Shown one piece after another: positions 16,149 to 29,661 of a DNA stretch of 64,000 nt. The notes under the pieces are model-generated. The model was not told the DNA's origin. It saw nothing but the letters and a program-made list of their open reading frames with translations, and did not search any database. The stretch is taken from contig NZ_CP054491.1 of assembly GCF_013343005.1 (NCBI RefSeq), forward strand, positions 2,338,501-2,402,500. Direction: 5' to 3'. How positions within the stretch are numbered: position 1 is the stretch's first letter; each line of letters begins with the position of its first letter. A program made the translations under genes and the position numbers. This stretch comes from Candidatus Reidiella endopervernicosa (GTDB taxonomy: Bacteria; Pseudomonadota; Gammaproteobacteria; GCF-013343005).

Positions 16149-17648
16149 CTAAAACAGCGCCTGAAGATCTTTAAGTTCATAGAGACCGACAAAGAACGAC
16201 ATCAGCACCAGAAAGAGTAGCATCGATGTACCCCAGGCGAGTCGTGATTCAAAATCCATGTAGCGTTGTTGCCAGTATCCCTTTCGACTCTTGAGACTGG
16301 TCTTCTGCCGAGTCCAGGTCTGTTTATAGAGATGGTGCAGCATGAAGATTTTAACCAACGAACCATAGATCTGATTGAAATAGACCAGAAATGGCCAGCT
16401 GATTGAGAACTGCTTGTGGAATACCGCCAGCGCCTTGGCCATGATATAGCGGGTAAATAGTATCCAGAGGGTGAAAGCGAGTAGCAGCTCGGGACCGAAC
16501 TTCAAGCTACCCAGAATTGCCGCCGTAAAACCGAAGAGCGAAGTCCACATACTCAACATCTGGTCACGTAGCGCCCACCAGGTGTAGGTGCCAGTCGTCT
16601 TCCTCGGAATCATCCGTGCGCGTGCATTGGTACGCAACATGTTGCCAAACCACCGTCGCATCAACACATTGGCACCGGTGAAGAACTCCTTATTAGGTGG
16701 CTCCTCAACCGTCAGGATTAATGCATCGGGTACATAGCCCATGTCCCAGCCATCTTTGAGCACGTGATACCAGGTCGACTTATCATCACCCGTCAAAAAG
16801 CGGAACCGGCCTAGACGCCAATGGTCAATCGCATCGAACTCAACGCGACTAATAAATTCAGGATCACCCACAATATTTCCACGGAACATCGACATGCGAC
16901 CGGTCAGTGTTAGCACATGGCGCGATAGTGCCATTGAGGCCATATAGACATTGCGCTGCGCAAAACGCAGGTTGTACCAGCGACGGTAGATCCCCGTCAC
17001 CCTCCCCTCACCGATCAGGGTGCACTCCTCATCGGTGGTCACAGCGCCAAGTCTTGGGTTGATCTTGAACATGCGAAAACAGGCCGAGGCACAGCCGGGA
17101 CTGAGTATGGTATCGCCATCGATCACCGAGACCACTGAGTCCTCAAGATGGACAGGCGTGGAAGAGACTGCCCGGAATCCGGCAGCGAGTGCATCACGCT
17201 TACCTGTTCCGGGAATGCGAACCAATTTGAGATCGACATTCTCGGGTGGATTGAGGCTCTGGAAGATCTGTTTAACCAGTCGCTCCTCACTCATCTCCAC
17301 AATTGAAGCAATGACCGTTGAGGGCACACCACAACGAATCGCCTCTTTGACCGTTTCACGATAGACATCCACCGAAGTATCGGTATCGATACGGAAGGTC
17401 GTCACCAGAAAGAAGGCGTGGATTGGATCGCCCTCTGTGCCGAGCGCATCGGCCTTTTTTCGCATGCGCGGAAAGACAACCTTCAAATAGATGAGGGCAC
17501 GGAAGAAGTGTTGAATCGCCCAGCTATAGCGCCAAACCGCAACCACACCGATGATAAAGATGAATTGCCGCGCATCGGGATCGAAATAGATACTGGGCAG
17601 CGCCATCGCCATAACCACCATCACCAGGATATAGATGAGCTGACCCAC
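16149..17648 (-). CDS. alg8: mannuronan synthase catalytic subunit Alg8
   Basis: Alg8 is the inner-membrane GT2 glycosyltransferase that polymerises GDP-mannuronate with Alg44 as co-factor subunit. The 499-residue protein matches family length. It has N-terminal membrane segments, the cytosolic GT domain with SVIDGDTILSPG (DxD region, about residue 175), TGDDKSTWYHV (about 285) and the acceptor motif MRRWFGNMLR (about 330). A cluster of C-terminal membrane segments follows. The start is a GTG at 17648, overlapping by one base the stop of the preceding beta-helix gene. Unlike in Pseudomonas, it is the last gene of the locus rather than second. Confidence 0.92.
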   Translation of the reverse strand: MGQLIYILVMVVMAMALPSIYFDPDARQFIFIIGVVAVWRYSWAIQHFFRALIYLKVVFPRMRKKADALGTEGDPIHAFFLVTTFRIDTDTSVDVYRETVKEAIRCGVPSTVIASIVEMSEERLVKQIFQSLNPPENVDLKLVRIPGTGKRDALAAGFRAVSSTPVHLEDSVVSVIDGDTILSPGCASACFRMFKINPRLGAVTTDEECTLIGEGRVTGIYRRWYNLRFAQRNVYMASMALSRHVLTLTGRMSMFRGNIVGDPEFISRVEFDAIDHWRLGRFRFLTGDDKSTWYHVLKDGWDMGYVPDALILTVEEPPNKEFFTGANVLMRRWFGNMLRTNARARMIPRKTTGTYTWWALRDQMLSMWTSLFGFTAAILGSLKFGPELLLAFTLWILFTRYIMAKALAVFHKQFSISWPFLVYFNQIYGSLVKIFMLHHLYKQTWTRQKTSLKSRKGYWQQRYMDFESRLAWGTSMLLFLVLMSFFVGLYELKDLQALF

Positions 17649-18716: not shown

Positions 18717-20024
18717 CTACCAGCAGATTCCGTTGTAGCGTTCGTTACTGCACTGCCCCGAGATGCGTACCAGATCAACCACCGGTTTCTCAGCCACCTT
18801 GTCACAGATTTGAGTGAACTCTTCATCACCATTTCCAACAACGATCACATCAGCCTCAGAGAGCACCGTATCGATGTCGTTATAGATCCGATCCGAGACA
18901 TGGGAGATACGGTTATCGAGATTCTTATCCTTTGCGTCACGGTTGATACTGTTATAGACATTTCGGTCGTAGATAAAGAGTTCATAGCCCTTGCCGAGTA
19001 GTCGCTCCGCCAAAATCAGTTGAGGACTCTCACGCACGTCGTCGGTATCGGGTTTAAAGCTAAGACCAAGTAGTCCTACCCGTTTTTTTCCCGTGTCTCG
19101 AATCATGCCAATGGCACGATCTATCTGATAGAGGTTGCTCTTCATGATGTTAGAGATCATCGGTGAACGCAGGTCTAGCTTGTCCGACTGGTAGGCGAGC
19201 GCACGCACATCCTTAGGCAGACAGGAACCGCCAAAGGCGAAACCGGGTTTCAGGTAATAGGTGGAGAGGTTGAGCTTCTGATCCTGACAGAAGATATCCA
19301 TGACTGCATGACCATCAACGCCCGACTCCTTGGCGATGTTACCGATCTCATTGGCGAAGGTCACCTTCAGTGCGTGCCAGACATTATCGGCATACTTAAC
19401 CATCTCTGCGGTAGAAATGGAGGTACGAATCAATGGAGCATCGAGCTCTTTATAGATCGATTCAAGCATTGCACCTGCCCTCTCACAGCTCTCACCGATA
19501 ACCGTCTTGGGCGGATTGAAATAGTCAAAAATCGCCGTACCCTCACGCAGAAACTCAGGATTCGAAGCGTACATGAAACCTGTATCGAGCCCCTTGCCAG
19601 AGGTTTCAGTAATGATAGGAACCACTGTATCCCGTGCTGTTCCCGGCAGGACGGTACTCCTCATTACCACCAGATGATCTCCCTGCTTCTCTCGTAGTGA
19701 GATTCCTAGCTGGTTGGCGACATTTCGCACGAACTTAAGATCGAGTTCACCACTTGGCTGACTCGGCGTACCTACGCAGATAAAGCTCGCCTCGGACTCC
19801 ATCACCGCAGCGTGGTGATCGCTGGTCGCCTTGAGTTTCCCTGCGTCGACCACCTCTTTCATCAACGCATCTAGCCCCGGTTCAAACAGCGGTGCACGAC
19901 CCGAGTTGATAAGATCAATCTTATTCTGGTCTACATCAACTCCGATTATTTCGTGTCCCATCTTCGCCAGACAGGCACTACAGACTGCACCGACATAGCC
20001 CAAGCCAAAAATACTGATCTTCAT
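18717..20024 (-). CDS. algD: GDP-mannose 6-dehydrogenase AlgD
   Basis: AlgD oxidises GDP-mannose to GDP-mannuronic acid with two NAD+, the committed step toward alginate. The 435-residue protein begins KISIFGLGYVGAVCSACLAKMGH with the Rossmann motif GLGYVG. The catalytic cysteine lies in FGGSCLPKDVRA near residue 266. ASNPEFLREGTAI and SFKPDTDDVRESP are typical of the UDP/GDP-sugar dehydrogenase family, and no UDP-glucose-specific features were noted. The context (alg8, alg44, algG) supports the GDP-mannose substrate. It lies mid-operon, 48 bases after algK. Confidence 0.92.
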   Translation of the reverse strand: MKISIFGLGYVGAVCSACLAKMGHEIIGVDVDQNKIDLINSGRAPLFEPGLDALMKEVVDAGKLKATSDHHAAVMESEASFICVGTPSQPSGELDLKFVRNVANQLGISLREKQGDHLVVMRSTVLPGTARDTVVPIITETSGKGLDTGFMYASNPEFLREGTAIFDYFNPPKTVIGESCERAGAMLESIYKELDAPLIRTSISTAEMVKYADNVWHALKVTFANEIGNIAKESGVDGHAVMDIFCQDQKLNLSTYYLKPGFAFGGSCLPKDVRALAYQSDKLDLRSPMISNIMKSNLYQIDRAIGMIRDTGKKRVGLLGLSFKPDTDDVRESPQLILAERLLGKGYELFIYDRNVYNSINRDAKDKNLDNRISHVSDRIYNDIDTVLSEADVIVVGNGDEEFTQICDKVAEKPVVDLVRISGQCSNERYNGICW

Positions 20025-20071: not shown

Positions 20072-22504
20072 CTACTCGGACAACACGCCGGTCACCTTAA
20101 ATATTTCACTCTTTAACTCGAGCGAGCGTAGATTGGCCCGTCGGATATCGGCCGCACGATTGATTCGATCCATCAATGACAATGCCAGCTTCAATGCACC
20201 CGAGCTATTGCTGCGCGCTGCGGTCAGCACAAAGGCCAATCCCTCGGCTTGGTTACGCTTTGCTGAGATTCCGTTGAACAGCCGTTCGCCGTAGCGGCTC
20301 ATGGCCCTGCCGTGCCCTGCAAGGGCGGCCTCATGATAGAGGCGCATCACATAACGACGATCCTGCCCCTTTTGAGAATCGAGCAGTTCGGCCAGGGCAT
20401 ATTTGGCATCGAGATAGCCGAGCTGTGCGGCACGCTCATACCACTTGATCGCCAGTGCCAGCCAATCTGTCGAGAGCTGGGTTTTATGAATGGAGTAGAG
20501 CTCACCCAGTTCATAGGCGGCCTTGATCGTACCGGTTACTGCAAAACGTTCAAAGATCTGTCGTGCATACCGAAGATCTCGGGGCACTCCCTTACCGACG
20601 GCATGAAGTCGTGCCATCTGCAGATTGCCGAGATCGTAGCCTTGATCAATCGACTTGCGATAGAGACGCACCGCCTTGTCGATATCCAGCGTTTCAAAGC
20701 GCCCATACTCAACCAGTTTTCCGAGTCTGAAGGTCGCCGCCCCCAGGCCACGTTCAGAGAGTATTCGGTAGCTTGCAATGGCACGGTCGACATTCTGCTC
20801 AACACCAATCCCCTCCAGTTGCAAATCGGCATAGCGCAGCTGAGCCGGTGGATAACCGGCCACTGCCGATCGCTCATAGAGCGCCACGATCTCGGGTGTC
20901 ACAGCGTTATCACCGAGACGGAACTCGAGCATACGCGCCAGCTTGTAGGTAGCCGCGTGATCACCCGCCTTAGAGAGATCGACAAAGATCACCCTGGCGG
21001 CCTCAAAGTCCCTGACTGCCTCATCCCCCTGAGCATAGAGATCGGCCAGCTTGAGACGTGCGTTACCGTCATGACCCTCGACAGCTGCGAGATAGTGATC
21101 ACGCGCCTTGATATGGTTGCGCGGCAGATAATTGCCGTCTCGGTAGTAGTCACCGAGACGAACCATCGCAGGGGTATATTGCTCCTCGACCAGCGCCTCA
21201 AGAAGCGCTACCGCACGCGACTTATCAAGATCGACACCCAGACCTTCCCAGTAGAGTCCGGCCAGTCGCAGCCTTGCACCCTGATGTCCGGCCTCTCCAG
21301 CGCGCTGATACCAACTCACGGCCTCTAGCGGAAAGTGATCAAAGTCGGCCATCAGTTCGATCATTTGGGCCGCACCGTAGGCGGCACTGACATCACCCCG
21401 TAGTGCATATTTATGGTAGATCAGTCGGGCTGCACGAATATCACGTGTCACCCCAAGGCCATACCCCATCATTCTCGCCATGCGCAGCTCAGCACGTTCA
21501 AAACCCTGGTCATAGGAGAGCTGATAGAGCTCGTGGGCGTAGGCATAATCGAGTGGCTTCTCCTCGCCATCGCGGTAGAGATCCCCGAGCTTCGCGGTAG
21601 CCGGACCATAACCGCCGATCGACATCTCTTGATAGGTGTTGATCGCCTTATCGATATCACGCTCAACACCGATACCATGAAAGTAGAGATCGGCCATACG
21701 CAGTCGGGCCGCCTCATAGCCACCACTGGCCGCCTGCCGATAGAGCTCGACTGAACGGGCCGAAGGGCCGGATTCACCAGAGAGTTGCTCCTCCAATGCG
21801 GCCAGCCGATAAGCGGCACTCATATTGCCAAGATCGATCTGCTGCTGTAACAGCTCACGAGCTCGGTCGTAATCGACAGCCACGCCACGTCCCTCGATAT
21901 AGAGGGTAGCCAAGCGGTTCGCGGCACTCCGATGCCCGAGTGCAAGGGCACGCTGATAGTAGTCGTATGCCTTGGCATAGTTCTGTTGCAGCGCGATACC
22001 CTCGTCATAGAGCAGCGCCAGCTTGTACTGGGCACGTGGATTATCGGCATTGGCATGGCGGGACAGGATTTCTACACCGCGCGACGTATCACGTGGCAGG
22101 TATTGCCCTTCGATGTAGAGCTCGGCCAGTACAATCTCGGCAGGTACGCTACCCGCCGTCGCAGCCTGTTTCAGTGCATCGATCGCCGTGGCACGTTCGA
22201 CATCGCTCTTTGCATAACGCAGCAGAAACTGCCCCATGCCGTAGAGCGCACCGGTATGACCCAGTTCAATCGCACGCTGGTAGTGCGTAAGCGCCTCTTG
22301 TTGACGATCGGTACCAAGATGGCCTGCCGCATAGAGCTTGGCCAGTTGGTACTCCGCTTCAGGGAAATCCTTCCTGGCCAGCACCTCCCAGTTATCGAAG
22401 GCGGTCTCGTAGTCGCATTCCAGATTGGCCCTCTGTGCCACCTGCAGGTCGGCACAGCTTGTGAGCAACAGGATCGAAATCAATAAAGTTAATAGATGAC
22501 GCAT
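20072..22504 (-). CDS. algK: AlgK-like lipoprotein with very long Sel1/TPR repeat array
   Basis: In Pseudomonas AlgK is an outer-membrane lipoprotein with TPR/Sel1 repeats that docks the AlgE porin. This 810-residue protein starts with MRHLLTLLISILLLTSCADLQ, a lipoprotein signal with lipobox LTSC. The rest is a chain of Sel1-type repeats, roughly 36 residues each, with motifs such as AEYQLAKLYAAG, ARLRMADLYFHGIGV and ATAKLGDLYRDG. It is much longer than the roughly 475-residue Pseudomonas protein, so the scaffold is extended. The ATG at 22504 is preferred over a GTG at 22513; the algE stop is at 22507-22509. Confidence 0.82.
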   Translation of the reverse strand: MRHLLTLLISILLLTSCADLQVAQRANLECDYETAFDNWEVLARKDFPEAEYQLAKLYAAGHLGTDRQQEALTHYQRAIELGHTGALYGMGQFLLRYAKSDVERATAIDALKQAATAGSVPAEIVLAELYIEGQYLPRDTSRGVEILSRHANADNPRAQYKLALLYDEGIALQQNYAKAYDYYQRALALGHRSAANRLATLYIEGRGVAVDYDRARELLQQQIDLGNMSAAYRLAALEEQLSGESGPSARSVELYRQAASGGYEAARLRMADLYFHGIGVERDIDKAINTYQEMSIGGYGPATAKLGDLYRDGEEKPLDYAYAHELYQLSYDQGFERAELRMARMMGYGLGVTRDIRAARLIYHKYALRGDVSAAYGAAQMIELMADFDHFPLEAVSWYQRAGEAGHQGARLRLAGLYWEGLGVDLDKSRAVALLEALVEEQYTPAMVRLGDYYRDGNYLPRNHIKARDHYLAAVEGHDGNARLKLADLYAQGDEAVRDFEAARVIFVDLSKAGDHAATYKLARMLEFRLGDNAVTPEIVALYERSAVAGYPPAQLRYADLQLEGIGVEQNVDRAIASYRILSERGLGAATFRLGKLVEYGRFETLDIDKAVRLYRKSIDQGYDLGNLQMARLHAVGKGVPRDLRYARQIFERFAVTGTIKAAYELGELYSIHKTQLSTDWLALAIKWYERAAQLGYLDAKYALAELLDSQKGQDRRYVMRLYHEAALAGHGRAMSRYGERLFNGISAKRNQAEGLAFVLTAARSNSSGALKLALSLMDRINRAADIRRANLRSLELKSEIFKVTGVLSE

Positions 22505-22506
22505 CA

Positions 22507-24152
22507 CTACCACCGCACCTTCAACTCAAGACGCGCACTATAGGCAGTATCATCGGCGGCAACCCCATCAAAGGCATCTCCACCCTGGAACACTCCCAAT
22601 ACACCTTCGGGAGTCGCTATTTTTGCGAAAGTTTGTTTTGGGCATCAAGCCCAAGCAAACAGCAAAACTTAACGCGACCGTTTATGCCTGCGGCGCCCCG
22701 ACGTCCTGCGTACGTTGCGTAATCACCTCTTCGCGGCTCTACACAACTCCCTCAGTGACTCTACGCCGACATAAAGCCGCTGCTGCATCTTCTCCGTCGT
22801 TCGCTCGCGCTCTCAACTACGAATAGGCAGACGGCGTCGACTATCGGGACTAACCGCCCTCACTTCGCTCTCCATGGCGGTCAGCGGAGGCGTATATCCC
22901 GATGCAGATCACCACCCAGAGTAAGGTCGAGCCCGTAACCAATATCGGTAGAGAGACCGTTGGGACGTAACCGCGTCCTTCCTGCCTGTAACCAGCTGTC
23001 TGCCTCCATCTGCTGGTAGTGGTAGTACGCACCCTCCAGCCAGACCGATTCGTTCAACGGCAGACCCGCAAACACAGAGACGATCTGCAGATTGCCAAGT
23101 GCAGGGTCGAGCGTATCACCGTAGTAGCGCAGCCGCGTATCACCTACCCGACGGTCTTTGTTTGAAGCGATATGTGGCTGTAGATAACCGCTATAGTCAC
23201 CACTAAGCGTCGGATCGCCCTGCCCCAACGCATACCTCACTCCAATGGCATGACCTTGTTCAGAGAGACGGGTAATCAGACCCAGATCGAGACCAAATCC
23301 TCCTGAGATCGACTGATCAACCCAACTCACCAGATGGGTAACAGGATCTTCAATACGTAGATTGCGATCACCCTGAACGGTCGCCAGGTCGAGCCAGTAA
23401 TTGAACCGACGTCCAGTGTTGTAACGCTTCTCACCTTCAAATGAGATGACCAGCCAATTCAACTCTGAGTTCTCGCTCAGCGCATTCGATTCATAGAGCT
23501 CATCGAAGGTAAAACGCTCGGGAGCCTCATAGGATTCGTGAATAAGTTGCAGACGCATAAAGTGGCGATGGTGCCACTGATATTCGATTGCGCCGAACAG
23601 ATAGTAGCTATCACTATCATCATTCCGGCTATTGTCATCTTCATCGAAGATATCGTCGAGGCGTGGATTCCAAACCCATCTGGCAGCACCCAGACCGATA
23701 TCGAGCAGGGTTGAGTCGTAGTAACCCTTGATCAGATCGATATCGTCATCAAATAACCAGGAGCGCTGATCACGCAGCCGGGTACGTCCAATATCTGCCG
23801 CCAGAAAGGGTGACTCAAAAAGGTTCTCACCACGAAGATAGAGGCGTTTAATCTCTGCAGAGAGACCACAATCGATCTCATTGGAACCAAACAGTTCGCG
23901 ACAGGAGAAGATGGCGCGCAGATCGGCATCGAGCAGCCAATCCTCCCACATCAAACGGTTATACCGAATCCCCAGCCTGACCAGTCCCTCGCTCGCTTCG
24001 TAGCGTTCATCGCCAAGCGGAGCCATATCGGAAAAACCACTGAGTTTAAAATCACTATAGAAGTGGTGACTGGAGAGTTCGCGTGGTTCAGCAGCCACAG
24101 CGGTCGCAGCGAGGATTAGAACAACCGCGTATCGACGCAGGATTTTAATCAT
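22507..24152 (-). pseudogene. algE: AlgE-like alginate export porin, interrupted by repeat near C-terminus
   Basis: AlgE is the outer-membrane barrel that exports alginate. From an ATG at 24152 (overlapping algG by four bases) the protein has signal peptide MIKILRRYAVVLILAATAVA and then barrel-like alternating strands (ELSSHHFYSDFKLSGFSD and many aromatic/charged pairs). It runs in frame to about residue 423 (HRDIRL). There the 22610-22886 repeat enters, adds one residue and gives a TGA at about 22881. Beyond the repeat the frame resumes as EGVLGVFQGGDAFDG and ends SARLELKVRW with a TAG at 22507. The terminal Trp is a typical OMP beta-signal, now severed. The encoded product lacks its last one or two strands and is probably not assembled. 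Confidence 0.85.
22610..22886 (+). repeat. ~277-bp dispersed repeat, copy 1 (inside algE)
   Basis: This segment matches 27522-27787 in inverted orientation almost throughout. Both copies share the end sequences GGAGTCGCTATTTTTGCGAA and CCATGGCGGTCAGCG, and a completely matching core of about 70 bases around 22708-22778. Differences are mainly small indels near 22636-22655, 22692-22706 and 22820-22850. It contains a hairpin-forming segment (GTTTG...GGGC/GCCC...CAAAC, 22630-22660) and an inverted pair CTAACCGCC/GGCGGTCAG near one end. No transposase and no long terminal inverted repeat are visible. It carries a short open frame (22623-22826), but indels between the copies break it. I interpret it as a non-autonomous MITE-like element. 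Confidence 0.85.
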
Positions 24153-26578
24153 CTCTCCACCCCGGCCCATCTTGATAGCTGGGTATAGCTCACCCTGGCG
24201 CCTGGATCACGATGACGGTTAACCTTACCCAGCACCTGCTCCAGTCGCTCCTTGTGTCTCTGCATATCTTCTGCACGTGTGGCGATCAGATAACGGTCGG
24301 ACGTCCTCTCTCGCATCGCCTTTCGGTCAAGATAGGCACGACGCTCTCCCGTCGCCTCTCGTCCCTCAAGCAGCTCACGCTGGCGACGCGCTTCGCGCTT
24401 GACCTTTAAACGATTAATAGCCTTCTGTTCGCTCAGGTACTCCTTCAGTTTGTCTGGTCCATAGGCCTGAAACCGATCAATCTCTGGTTTAAAAAGCCGC
24501 AGTACAGCGCGATAACTGCGTAGTTTTTCTGGCTCATTGCTCTGTGCCGCAGGTCTCTGCTCAGATGAACACTCATCACCCACACACAAATCAGCCGCTA
24601 CCAACTCTGCCCTGGCACGATTCACTGCAGAGACCAGTTGATTCTTGCTCACGCCAGTAATCAGCGGTAACCACTTGAGTTCAATGGCAGCCTTGGCATC
24701 GCCGTGAAGCGCTGCCAGAGCAAGTTTTGTTAGAGGCCCAACAACACGCTCTCCTCGATAGCCATGCTCTCGAAGCTTCAGATGTGCAAGCAGGCGCAAC
24801 GATGAGCTATGACCCGATTCAGCCGATTGTGATAGTGCATCTGTAATTCGTTTTATTGACTGTTTATTGGCGACACTCAACTCTCTGAGCTGAAGTACCG
24901 AGAGTTCATAGCTCGCTGCAACTACACCCTCTTGAGCAAGCTGCTCGAGTATTTCGCGTTTATAGCGATTAATGTCCCCCTGACGACTGGGTTTAACGGC
25001 ACCCCCTGCCCGTTTTTGTCGATGTAACTTTGACTGTCCACCGAATTGTTGACCACTACAGAGGCGCTTTGGATCACCACAGAAGGAGACACCACCTTGA
25101 AGATTACCGAGCAGTAGCTGATCAGCCACACCCTGAACATCATCTGAGAAGAGAGATGAACCAGAGGAACTAAAATCGTTACCGAACAGCTGTAGATAGG
25201 CACTCGATTTAATAGCAACAGCCCCCGATAGATTTTCAGAAAGGGTGTTTCTATTAAGTCTCAGACCACTCGCCATGTGGTAGGGATCACGTTCAAAGTC
25301 ACGCGTCTCCAGCTTATCGATATTGACGACTGCTGTTTCAACACCAAAATGGCCATTGCGGAAGAACCTGTTGTTATCAGCCGTTACCGAGAGACTATTG
25401 CGTACAAACAGTCCGTTATTGGCATTGGAAAAGAGTGTATTGCCACTGATGCGATTGTTATCGCTCTCAAAGATTGCCACTCCATCACCATGATTGGCAA
25501 AAACCACATTGTCACGAATCAGGGTTCTCTCAATATTTCGATCCAGCATGATGCCGGAACCGTGGTTACCGAAGGAGATATTCTCACTGATCAATGCATC
25601 CTTGATCTCACGTGAAAGGATTATGCCGTGTGCGTGTTTGGCATCGAAGGTGATGTTGCGCGCAACAATCAGCCGCTTGGTAAAATCGTGCGGATCTACG
25701 TTATAGATAAGGTTGTCGTGAAAAATATTTCCTATCAAGACTACACGATCGGCATCGTTGGTATAGAAACCGAAAAAACAGTTCACTATCCGGTTTCCGA
25801 CAAAGATACCGTGTGGTTTTGGGAGATATTTGATCGCGCCTGAGAGCGAAGAGACGGTCCAGAGTGACTTGATCTGCGGCGCTGTTAGCGACAGACCAAA
25901 ACTGGCCCGACCGTTATAACCAAGTCCATTAATGGTTGAGTTTGCAAAGTAACTGCCTGATCCTTCCATGCCCTGAATATAGGGGCGTGCGTCACGCTTG
26001 GCGTAATGCAGTAGCTCTGCCTTTGGCAAAACGGGTCGTGGTCCGTAGTCGCCACGACTTTCATCCCAGCTGGTAATGGTCGCATCGACCACATAGAGAT
26101 CGCCGTTATAGGCAAGCACAGCGGTGTCGGGTACAGATAGACGCAGTGTCACTCCCTGTACCACCAGCTTGGCAGTGGGTGCCACGTAGATCGGGCGGTA
26201 ACTGATGTAGGTCTTAGCATCGACCTGTCGAATCAGGCGATCATCGTTGACCAGCCGCACCACATCGGCAAGATCATAGACACCATTGGCAAGCATGATC
26301 GCCTTTACAGCCCCCCGTTTTCCCTGATGCTGTCGTGTTGTCTGTAACTCAAAATAATTTTCGACAGGAAAAGTATAGAGCTGATCGAGACGAATAAGCG
26401 ACACATCACTGCCGTGTCGACGCTGAGGTAGCCTCTCGCGAACCGACTCAACGGTATAACGATCCAGCTCACTCGCACCTGTCTGGTTGAGGGGAAGCTC
26501 AACAGCAAATAAAGCTTGGCTACAGAACAACAACGACCAGAGCAGTTGCCCCAAGTGCTGCATCGACAGACGCATCAT
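24149..26578 (-). CDS. algG: AlgG-like mannuronan C5-epimerase with C-terminal extension
   Basis: AlgG converts mannuronate to guluronate residues in the periplasmic polymer and helps protect it during export. The signal peptide (LLWSLLFCSQALFA) is followed by the AlgG N-terminal domain, then a right-handed beta-helix. The catalytic motif DPHDFT lies near residue 295, followed by HGIILSREIKDALISEN and SGIMLDRN, closely like Pseudomonas AlgG. Pseudomonas AlgG ends near residue 543. Here about 270 more residues follow: an alpha-helical Sel1/TPR-like part (about 555-660) and a very basic, Arg/Lys/Glu-rich predicted coiled coil (about 700-790). That fusion is unusual. The gene is 14 bases after alg44. 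Confidence 0.86.
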   Translation of the reverse strand: MMRLSMQHLGQLLWSLLFCSQALFAVELPLNQTGASELDRYTVESVRERLPQRRHGSDVSLIRLDQLYTFPVENYFELQTTRQHQGKRGAVKAIMLANGVYDLADVVRLVNDDRLIRQVDAKTYISYRPIYVAPTAKLVVQGVTLRLSVPDTAVLAYNGDLYVVDATITSWDESRGDYGPRPVLPKAELLHYAKRDARPYIQGMEGSGSYFANSTINGLGYNGRASFGLSLTAPQIKSLWTVSSLSGAIKYLPKPHGIFVGNRIVNCFFGFYTNDADRVVLIGNIFHDNLIYNVDPHDFTKRLIVARNITFDAKHAHGIILSREIKDALISENISFGNHGSGIMLDRNIERTLIRDNVVFANHGDGVAIFESDNNRISGNTLFSNANNGLFVRNSLSVTADNNRFFRNGHFGVETAVVNIDKLETRDFERDPYHMASGLRLNRNTLSENLSGAVAIKSSAYLQLFGNDFSSSGSSLFSDDVQGVADQLLLGNLQGGVSFCGDPKRLCSGQQFGGQSKLHRQKRAGGAVKPSRQGDINRYKREILEQLAQEGVVAASYELSVLQLRELSVANKQSIKRITDALSQSAESGHSSSLRLLAHLKLREHGYRGERVVGPLTKLALAALHGDAKAAIELKWLPLITGVSKNQLVSAVNRARAELVAADLCVGDECSSEQRPAAQSNEPEKLRSYRAVLRLFKPEIDRFQAYGPDKLKEYLSEQKAINRLKVKREARRQRELLEGREATGERRAYLDRKAMRERTSDRYLIATRAEDMQRHKERLEQVLGKVNRHRDPGARVSYTQLSRWAGVER

Positions 26579-26592
26579 CCGTTCCAGTCCGA

Positions 26593-27950
26593 TCAGTAGA
26601 GTGAATCGAGATCGAGAGTGGAGATTTTCACCGTTGCCACTGAATCAAGCATTTCAGCAGGGATTGGGCGACTCGGTTCAATGACGACGGTTGCATACTC
26701 ACTCGCCTGGCCGCGGTTTCGACTGAGCGGTGCAGACTGCAGATATTCAGAGCGGGTATGGGCCCTGACCTCAATCACCTTACCGGTGAGCAGTTCGCCG
26801 TTAACCAATCGCACCTCGGCGTCATCACCAACCTTGAGTCGATCGACAAACTCAAAGGCAACCTGCGCTTCAATACGCATGGAGGCACTCTTATCTGTCA
26901 AGGTAAAGAGCGGTTCACCCTTGGCAACAAAAACGTCATCTCTTACGTGTACATCATGAAGCAGACAGTCACAGGGGCCTTCAATCGTAGCTGCGCCACC
27001 ATTGACCAGTTTTACGATACCCAGCATCTGCCCTGAGTTGATCTCCTCGCTTCCGGCCTTAAGTGATTGATGGAAAAAACCATCATCTGGTGCCCTGAGG
27101 ACGACAATCGATCCCTGCACCTTGGCCGCCAGTGACTCAATGACAAACAGACGGTTGTAAGCAGTGAAGCCGATAAACCAGAGCAGTGCGGCAAAGATGG
27201 AGAAGAGAACGAGACGGCCGACAAAACGTTTCACACCCTGTACAAAACGGGTAAAGCCACCAACATTCTCCTCAAGTTTCTTATCAAGATCCTTTTTGAT
27301 GAAGCTGTCACGGCCAACAACGTGCAGTAGATCACCCGCATTGACCAACTCTCCCGAGAGGAACGCGTTAATAACATAGTGAATAAGCGAAAGGTTCTGT
27401 TTGGAGAGGTTAACGAAACGACAGCCAAAATCACACGATTCAGCATCATATCGAATCACCTCCATCTCAAGTTCAACAATCAGCTGAAAACCATCAAAGG
27501 CAAAGAGCAGCTGACCACCATCGCTGACCGCCATGGAGAGCGAAATGAGGGCGGTTAGTCCCTCGAATCCACGCCGTTGCCTATCGTAGTTGGCGCGAGC
27601 GAACGACGGAGAAGATGCAGCACGGCTTTATGTCGGCGTAGAGTCACTGAGGGAGTTGTGTAGAGCCGCGAAGAGGTGATTACGCAACGTACGCAGATGG
27701 TCGAGCGCCAGGCATAAACGGTCGCGTGAAGTTTTGCTGTTTGCTTGGGCTGATGCAAAGACAAACTTTCGCAAAAATAGCGACTCCGGGTGCTTGCGCC
27801 TATCTCCTGCGGAATTTTGATCGCAGAAAGACCGGAGACAGACCACTCCTCTATCTCATAGGGATTGCCGCCCATGATCAGTTTGGCAGGAATTCTGAAA
27901 CGGGCATGCTGACGAGAGTATTCAGCCTCGTGCACAATTTGTGTGGTCAT
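26593..27950 (-). pseudogene. alg44: Alg44 c-di-GMP receptor/alginate polymerase subunit, PilZ domain split by repeat
   Basis: Alg44 binds c-di-GMP through an N-terminal PilZ domain and activates Alg8; a single membrane segment and a periplasmic HlyD-like part follow. Here the N-terminal piece (ATG 27950) has the PilZ Arg motif RQHARFRIPAKL and the SVSG-type second motif, then reaches EIGAST. The repeat 27522-27787 follows and produces a TAA at 27555. The rest resumes in another frame as DGGQLLFAFDGFQLIVELE, FGCRFVNLS and ISTL at the C-terminus, including membrane segment VLFSIFAALLWFIGFTAY and HlyD-like domain. An ATG at 27534, 20 bases past the TAA and inside the repeat, could reinitiate the distal part. 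The intact receptor cannot be made as a single chain. Confidence 0.88.
27522..27787 (-). repeat. ~266-bp dispersed repeat, copy 2 (inside alg44)
   Basis: This is the partner of 22610-22886. On the minus strand it has the same start GGAGTCGCTATTTTTGCGAA and the same end CCATGGCGGTCAGCG, with small internal indels making it 11 bases shorter. It runs in the same direction as alg44, whereas copy 1 runs against algE. No convincing target-site duplication longer than two bases is visible. Joining the flanks at ACC|GAT gives EIGAST-DGGQLL, an in-frame PilZ sequence, which suggests a clean insertion. Confidence 0.85.
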
Positions 27951-28016
27951 TACACCTTTCTCTCTTTCACAATATTCATGGGGTTAAATCCAGGCTCAGA
28001 TGAGGTGGTTTAAGGT

Positions 28017-28040
28017 GTGTGAATAGTATATGGGTCACAC
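28017..28040. promoter_or_regulatory. inverted repeat GTGTGA-N12-TCACAC overlapping alg44 promoter
   Basis: A perfect six-base inverted repeat with a 12-base spacer covers the predicted -10 of the alg44 promoter. The spacer is too long for the CRP consensus (six bases). It could be an operator for another regulator or a transcript hairpin. A second, ten-base palindrome CCCATATGGG lies at 28073-28082. Confidence 0.4.
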
Positions 28041-28054
28041 ATATAGAACAACAA
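28025..28054 (-). promoter_or_regulatory. candidate promoter of the alginate-type operon
   Basis: On the minus strand TTGTTG (28049-28054) is followed 18 bases later by TATACT (28025-28030), about 75 bases ahead of the alg44 ATG. This resembles a sigma-70 promoter. No clear AlgU/sigma-E type GAACTT...TCTGA pair was seen, so control may differ from Pseudomonas algD. Confidence 0.4.
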
Positions 28055-28236
28055 TCTAGCTAACTATTCTGCCCCATATGGGACTCTATATGCGTTAGAC
28101 TGCAGCTAGGCTGAAAGCCCTATCGTTAATATCGAGCAAGCAGGCTCAAATAGCGACTCGAACGACTTCTTAGTGAGAGAGAAAAACAGTGAAAATCACC
28201 CTAACAACCACACTCAGCACATCTCAAAGTTAGACT

Positions 28237-29661
28237 ATGACTCACATCATTCCAGTCGTCCTTTCTGGCGGATCCGGTAGTCGGCTCTGGCCTCTATCCA
28301 GAGCACTCCACCCAAAGCAGTTTCTTCCCCTCACCGATGAGGAGTTGACGATGTTGCAGCAGACCATCGCACGGGTTCGCGGGATCGAGACCGAATCGCT
28401 TATGGTGGTCTGTAATGAACACCACCGCTTTCTGGTTGCTGAGCAGCTACTCAAGTCTGGCATTGAGAACAGCTCAATTATCCTGGAACCTGAGGGACGC
28501 AATACTGCACCAGCGATCTGCATCGCAGCACTAGAGGTCATAGAGAAACATGGCGATGGGCTGATGCTTGTACTGCCTGCTGACCACAAGATCAATGATG
28601 TTGATGCTTTTGAAGCGGCGGTAAGACACAGCGCAGCACTTGCAGACTCGGGAAACCTGGTCACATTTGGCATTAAACCGACAAATCCCAATACCGGTTA
28701 CGGATATATCCTGGCTGGTGAGCAGATCGATGAGAGTGCCTTACATGTCGATCGATTCGTCGAGAAGCCCAACCAGAAAGATGCGCAGCGATATCTCGAT
28801 GAAGGCACCTACTACTGGAATAGCGGCATGTTCATGTTGCGAGCAAGCGACTATCTCAATGAGCTCGCTCAGCATCAACCAGCCATTCTTGACGCTTGCA
28901 GGCAGTCGTACCAGCAGAGAACTATTGATAGCGACTTTGTTCGCATAGAGGCCTCCCATTTCGTAACCTCCCCCGCCATTTCAATCGACTACGCCGTGAT
29001 GGAGAAGACCGCACATGCAGCAATGGTTCCCTTCTCTGCAGGATGGAGTGATGTCGGATCCTGGAGTTCACTCTGGGAGGTTGGCGAAAAAGACATGAAA
29101 GGCAACGTCATACGCGGTGATGTTCACACCTCAGACGTCAACAATTCACTTATTTATGCCGAAAATCGCATGGTGGCTGCACTCGGTGTAAGCAATCATG
29201 TTGTGGTTGAGACAGCAGATGCGGTTCTGATTGCCGACATGAATTCGACTCAGGATATCAAACAGGTTGTTGAGACTCTCAACAGCAACCAACGCGAAGA
29301 GGCGCTACTCCATCTTAAGGTTGCCAGACCCTGGGGCTCATACGCTTGCATCGACGAGGAGCCGCGGTTCAAGGTCAAGCGAATCATCGTCAAACCACAC
29401 GCCTCACTCTCCCTGCAGCTCCACCATCAGCGTGCTGAACATTGGGTTGTAGTCAAAGGGAGTGCTCTGGTAACACGCGGCGATGAGAACTTTGTGCTCA
29501 ATGAGAATGAGTCGACCTATATACCGGTTGAAACCAGACACCGCCTAGAGAACCCTAACGACACACCACTTGAGATTATCGAGGTTCAATCAGGCAACTA
29601 TCTAGGCGAGGATGATATCGTCCGATTCGATGATCACTACGGTCGACATAATGGTAACTAG
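28237..29661 (+). CDS. algA: mannose-1-phosphate guanylyltransferase/mannose-6-phosphate isomerase
   Basis: This bifunctional enzyme makes GDP-mannose for alginate and other mannose polymers. The 474-residue protein has the N-terminal nucleotidyltransferase motif VVLSGGSGSRLWPLSR (residues about 6-21) and the signature FVEKPNQKDA. The C-terminal cupin isomerase domain begins near residue 367 (RPWGSYACIDEEPRFKVKRI), with zinc-site segment SLQLHHQRAEHWVVVKG. It is divergent from alg44, with a 286-base shared upstream region. In Pseudomonas algA is the last gene of the operon. Other users of GDP-mannose are possible, so manC would be an equivalent name. Confidence 0.93.
   Translation: MTHIIPVVLSGGSGSRLWPLSRALHPKQFLPLTDEELTMLQQTIARVRGIETESLMVVCNEHHRFLVAEQLLKSGIENSSIILEPEGRNTAPAICIAALEVIEKHGDGLMLVLPADHKINDVDAFEAAVRHSAALADSGNLVTFGIKPTNPNTGYGYILAGEQIDESALHVDRFVEKPNQKDAQRYLDEGTYYWNSGMFMLRASDYLNELAQHQPAILDACRQSYQQRTIDSDFVRIEASHFVTSPAISIDYAVMEKTAHAAMVPFSAGWSDVGSWSSLWEVGEKDMKGNVIRGDVHTSDVNNSLIYAENRMVAALGVSNHVVVETADAVLIADMNSTQDIKQVVETLNSNQREEALLHLKVARPWGSYACIDEEPRFKVKRIIVKPHASLSLQLHHQRAEHWVVVKGSALVTRGDENFVLNENESTYIPVETRHRLENPNDTPLEIIEVQSGNYLGEDDIVRFDDHYGRHNGN

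Follow-up and report, generated by a model that had tools for sequence, protein, structure and literature searches.

The window analysed here, a 64,000-nucleotide stretch of Candidatus Reidiella endopervernicosa DNA, contains an alginate cluster on its minus strand. The cluster runs from 27950 to about 16150 in the order alg44, algG-like, algE, algK-like, algD-like, a gene for a beta-helix protein, and an alg8-like polymerase gene. With an algA-like gene lying divergently, alg44 is in the company of alginate genes (Table 1). Two genes of the cluster are interrupted, each by a copy of the same element of about 280 nt. alg44, which extends from 27950 to 26593, is broken within its PilZ domain by an insert of 266 nt, and algE is broken by a second copy in the orientation opposite to the alg44 copy. 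No frameshift or nonsense change is seen in either piece of alg44 or, algE aside, in the genes downstream. The AlgG-like protein is 809 aa long; in relatives L170 and L171, a gene of its own encodes the C-terminal part.

Table 1. Genes and element copies of the alginate cluster, with positions in the window
Feature	Position	Strand	Details
algA-like GMP/PMI gene, divergent	28237-29661	+	TIGR01479 above cutoff
alg44 proximal piece, 54 native codons	27788-27950	-	RQHAR (RxxxR) and EEWSVSG (second PilZ site)
Read-through ORF, proximal piece into element	27555-27950	-	stop TAA at 27557-27555
Element copy in alg44, ~280-nt interspersed structured family	27522-27787	+	266 nt; antisense to alg44; blastn 91.8% to consensus; aligned with 30 copies
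alg44 distal piece	26593-27534	-	PilZ remainder, membrane helix, periplasmic adaptor (HlyD_3); ATG element-derived
algG-like epimerase gene, intact	24149-26578	-	NF038177, below cutoff; 45% identity to relatives
algE main piece	22881-24170	-	Alginate_exp; stop TGA from element (CGC/TGA)
Second element copy, in algE	22610-22886	-	97.5% to consensus
Detached algE C-terminus, 33 codons (EGVLGVFQGGDAFDGVAADDTAYSARLELKVRW)	22507-22609	-	22507 edge approximate
algK-like Sel1/TPR lipoprotein gene, intact	20072-22513	-	NF038194, below cutoff; Sel1; relatives
algD-like nucleotide-sugar dehydrogenase gene	18717-20024	-	56% to relative
alg8-like GT2 polymerase gene	16149-17648	-	61% to relative

The broken genes alg44 and algE

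In Pseudomonas aeruginosa, Alg44 binds c-di-GMP via its PilZ domain and interacts with Alg8 (PMC8461298). By that review's account, Alg44 mutations that block c-di-GMP binding stop alginate production there (Merighi 2007, reviewed in PMC8461298). The gene in the window shares the domain order (PilZ, TM, MFP) and operon company of this c-di-GMP receptor and also has the RxxxR motif, whereas here a mobile element separates the c-di-GMP motifs from the remainder of the gene. It further differs in having E at the D44 position and D at the R95 position.

The distal ORF comprises 313 codons, from ATG 27534 to 26593. It matches the Alg44 PilZ structures PDB 4RT0, 4RT1, and 4XRN from its residue 7 on, aligns to residues 54-109 of the 4RT0 chain, and contains an HlyD_3 adaptor domain. 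Both PilZ sites are found on the proximal piece, namely RxxxR and a second c-di-GMP motif, EEWSVSG, which has E in place of the D/N of (D/N)xSxxG and was aligned to DLSAGG of 4RT0 via the DNWSVSG of relatives. The break lies past the WSVSG motif region and ahead of the GQLLF strand. The preliminary description had reported a split inside the PilZ domain, with RxxxR on the N-terminal piece and the PilZ remainder plus membrane anchor on the other. The two minus-strand frames, 27950-27555 and 26593-27534, are as it described them, the alignment with relatives bears out the placement of the motif, and the start coordinate it gave, 27522, is the exact edge of the element.

It had also proposed checking relatives for an intact alg44, and G174 and G191, both also Gammaproteobacteria, have one. 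In these genomes PilZ, membrane helix, and MFP form a single chain, where the window has two ORFs with the element between them. The true homologues (n = 2) came from a class-wide draw of genomes; the 56 nearest genomes, searched for Alg44, gave only a weak MFP match. Identity to the two intact homologues is 38% for the distal piece and 54-58% for the proximal piece. When the flanks of the insert are joined, the gene has the same length as the relatives' alg44, with 0 codons missing. An AlphaFold model of an intact relative had pLDDT <50 across the PilZ region and was left out of the placement of the break. The search of the present genome returned one Alg44 match and no second Alg44, and a search of a collection of genome contigs with the distal piece found no relative. 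With at least 40 occurrences of the ~280-nt sequence in the genome by direct scoring, and 46 copies per 400 kb sampled, insertion is the sole reasonable cause of the alg44 split.

In algE, the relatives' protein runs ~33-37 residues past the end of the main piece. The lost C-terminus, ending LELKVRW, is in frame (frame 1) just past the element and aligns with the last AlgE strands of relatives. Outer-membrane barrels need their C-terminal strands for assembly, and therefore export should fail as well; this truncation would block export irrespective of the state of Alg44.

A structured element that enters genes

Thirty copies of the element, aligned with their flanks, share the ends CGCTGACC... 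and ...GCGACTCC. An alignment of 12 sequences gave a consensus fold in which 19 of 45 pairs were changed on both sides, and such cells numbered 51, where shuffles gave 14.2 ± 2.8; the signal collapsed in slid controls. The 5′ end of this alignment was picked by an exact pattern, which imposes conservation there; helices 3, 6, and 7 covary independently of that choice. Rfam covariance models gave no match at E up to 1 at three loci and none at gathering in the window. No terminal inverted repeats were found, the inverted-repeat search of the algE copy giving internal hairpins only, and no flank repeat was consistent enough across 83 copies to indicate a target-site duplication. The insertion context is fixed. 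A C stands four bases before the left end in 81/83 copies and the base preceding it is a non-C in 81/83, which reads as non-C, C, NNN, then element.

A whole-genome search scored 40 copies among 366 candidates, which makes at least 40, and 46 matches in 400 kb of evenly spaced stretches extrapolate to about 400 copies in 3.45 Mb. The flanks were long enough for scoring in 75 of the sampled copies. Of these, 33 (44%) split open frames, 20 in antisense and 13 in sense, by the mechanical criterion of an open frame of at least 60 codons on both sides, under which a few of the 33 may be shadows. An orientation bias of gene insertions, suspected at about 16 to 5, did not reach significance once more insertions were counted (20 to 13, P = 0.30). 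When the joined pieces of six split genes were scanned, a Pfam domain crossed the junction in five (SBP_bac_8, ABC_tran, T2SSE, Molybdopterin, and Response_reg). The split genes we saw are accessory, encoding GGDEF/EAL proteins, sensor kinases, chemoreceptors, TonB receptors, a PilT-like ATPase, and transporters.

The element has relatives that share its ends in Thiodiazotropha, Chromatiales, Thiotrichaceae, Methylococcaceae, and other MAGs, and Methylobacter and Methylomonas plasmids carry partial matches. In Gammaproteobacteria MAGs (Ifr-MOX-184, Chromatiales 354-166, Thiodiazotropha), the family is often at contig ends, as if breaking assemblies. The present genome also has three RAYT-like Y1 transposase genes (L172:1456-1899, L173:1363-1938, and L174:1456-2173); the one on L174 is frameshifted, and the one on L172 lies 157 nt from an element copy.

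Entry of small mobile repeats into genes has precedents, the in-frame Rickettsia elements among them, and the copy number of MITEs such as ERIC can be as high as 711 (PMC2229807, PMC10969869). Like the bacterial MITEs Correia/NEMIS, ERIC, RUP, and Chunjie, the element is small (~280 nt), non-coding, non-autonomous, and high in copy number (46 per 400 kb), has strong RNA secondary structure, and sits both within and between genes. Unlike them, it shows neither terminal inverted repeats nor a target-site duplication in our searches, while it does show clear covariation across genera, and 44% of its sampled copies split genes. Insertion within protein-coding genes is also a trait of Rickettsia palindromic elements, but these are fused in frame and leave the gene readable, whereas all the antisense gene insertions sampled here have an upstream frame that ends within the element. 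With REP/REPIN sequences, which are moved by RAYT (Y1 HUH), the element has in common its high copy number, its hairpins, and the RAYT-like genes in the genome. It differs from them in measuring 280 nt against the 20-40 nt of REPs and in being often intragenic, and the terminal GTAG or CGTC tag is absent from CGCTGACC and GCGACTCC. In its effect the element resembles the known gene-entering repeats, and it fails the tests of terminal repeats and target duplication.

Tentatively, and at somewhat less than even confidence, we suggest that the insert belongs to an undescribed Gammaproteobacteria family of ~280-nt structured mobile elements. Its members would share a fold backed by compensatory changes and a fixed insertion context, and would lack both terminal repeats and target duplications. 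In one genome the family would have reached about 400 copies and split on the order of 150 genes, moving perhaps by a single-strand (HUH-type) mechanism. In the literature, where the sequence itself cannot be searched, we found no paper that names this element. The element is more novel than the alg44 split. For genome biology, it is a structured element of ~400 copies, inside genes in 44% of the sample and without the usual MITE marks, and it offers a useful case for the study of element movement and genome tolerance.

Probable consequences for Alg44 and alginate

We consider that a high-copy, non-autonomous, structured mobile element disrupted alg44 and algE and most likely disabled a dispensable pathway. 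One copy entered alg44 cleanly between the c-di-GMP-binding part of the PilZ domain and the remainder, and another entered algE. Alg44 and AlgE would then be nonfunctional or nearly so, and alginate would be neither made nor exported. Any distal Alg44 would probably be made at a low level, by chance restart at the element ATG, and would lack the c-di-GMP site. This knock-out draws on insertions with precise breaks and no codon loss, on intact relatives, and on many gene-splitting sister copies in both orientations. Two observations stand against it: the alg44 copy is the most diverged one sampled and yet the alg44 halves are open, and the short in-frame spacing from stop to ATG is unusual.

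By pairwise alignment, 16 events separate the alg44 copy from its nearest neighbour, of which 4 are substitutions and 12 are indels. This is the largest distance among 83 copies; the next-highest is 11, and most copies are at 1 to 6. This divergence weakly favours selection on the halves. If it postdates the insertion, selection has kept about 1.1 kb of alg44 open, which would be an argument that the pieces are used. If the copy was already divergent at insertion, or the repeat was imperfectly assembled, nothing follows on selection.

Imperfect assembly bears on the frames inside the element as well. It is unlikely, though worth keeping in view, that the stop position and the stop-to-ATG gap are partly assembly error around a real insertion, which would be compatible with the knock-out. 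A repeat of 400 copies is hard to polish, and indels dominate the differences between copies, not only in the alg44 copy but also in another with 11 indels to 0 substitutions. On the other hand, several of the alg44-copy indels lie outside homopolymers, and the remaining genes of the window are frame-perfect.

The preliminary description had pointed to an upstream stop at 27555 followed, 20 nt on and within the element, by an ATG, and had read this as a possible reinitiation site. The arrangement holds, and the ATG at 27534 is in frame after a gap that is unusually short. The ATG is a fixed part of the element end (CTCCATGGCGGTCAGCG), present in most copies. For the 20 other antisense insertions into genes, the ATG shares the frame of the downstream half only twice, with about 7 such cases expected by chance; the 7 of 20 insertions with an altered ATG motif were scored as not in frame. 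In those with a recognisable ATG, the stop-to-ATG gap ranges from 19 to 202 nt, and the copy with 19 nt is out of frame. Typically, the upstream frame ends 48-200 nt before the element ATG. The combination of 20 nt and an in-frame ATG at alg44 is uncommon among copies. Because the element ATG is in frame in only 2/20 of the other antisense insertions, the element is no general restart device.

At alg44 itself, reinitiation across 20 nt is physically possible, if unproven. The SD-like sequence AAAGGTG, a good ribosome-binding sequence, precedes the proximal ATG 27950. No purine-rich ribosome-binding sequence (SD) was found ahead of the distal ATG 27534, no promoter-like site was found in 27400-28300, and the RNA fold of the restart region was no more stable than shuffles (z = −0.8). 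We saw no sign of a restart that is used or has evolved, with 2/20 in frame, no SD, and AlgE cut.

It is improbable that the split alg44 is still in use, with translation stopping at TAA 27557-27555 and restarting at ATG 27534 and the pieces assembling into a working or c-di-GMP-independent Alg44. The in-frame ATG 20 nt past the stop, the adaptor retained on the distal piece, the oldest-looking element copy with open halves on either side, and the intact operon genes other than algE would all suit such reuse. However, the distal ATG has no SD, the element ATG is generic and elsewhere usually out of frame, AlgE is cut as well, and the distal piece has neither c-di-GMP motif. Complementation between the Alg44 halves, or c-di-GMP-independent alginate, is speculation.

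Removal of the element from the mRNA as an intron, or its bypass by frameshifting, to give full-length Alg44 is very improbable: the clean insertion, the open halves of many interrupted genes, and the structured, covarying element would agree with it, but splicing is made unlikely by the occurrence of both orientations in genes (20 antisense, 13 sense), which is incompatible with an RNA intron, and by the lack of any RVT_1 match in the genome. There is also no Rfam intron match, and the genes seen to be interrupted are accessory rather than essential. Intron, retron-type, and IS110-type routes were rejected, as neither RVT_1 nor Transposase_20 was found in the genome.

Many genes are broken by the same repeat as alg44, and therefore the split Alg44 gives no new regulation to infer. 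For alginate biology this is a warning that an apparent split c-di-GMP receptor can be one of many repeat-broken genes. Elsewhere in the genome, a PilT-like ATPase gene (L153:15803-16594) and a TonB receptor gene (L163:5486-6435) apparently contain two element copies each.
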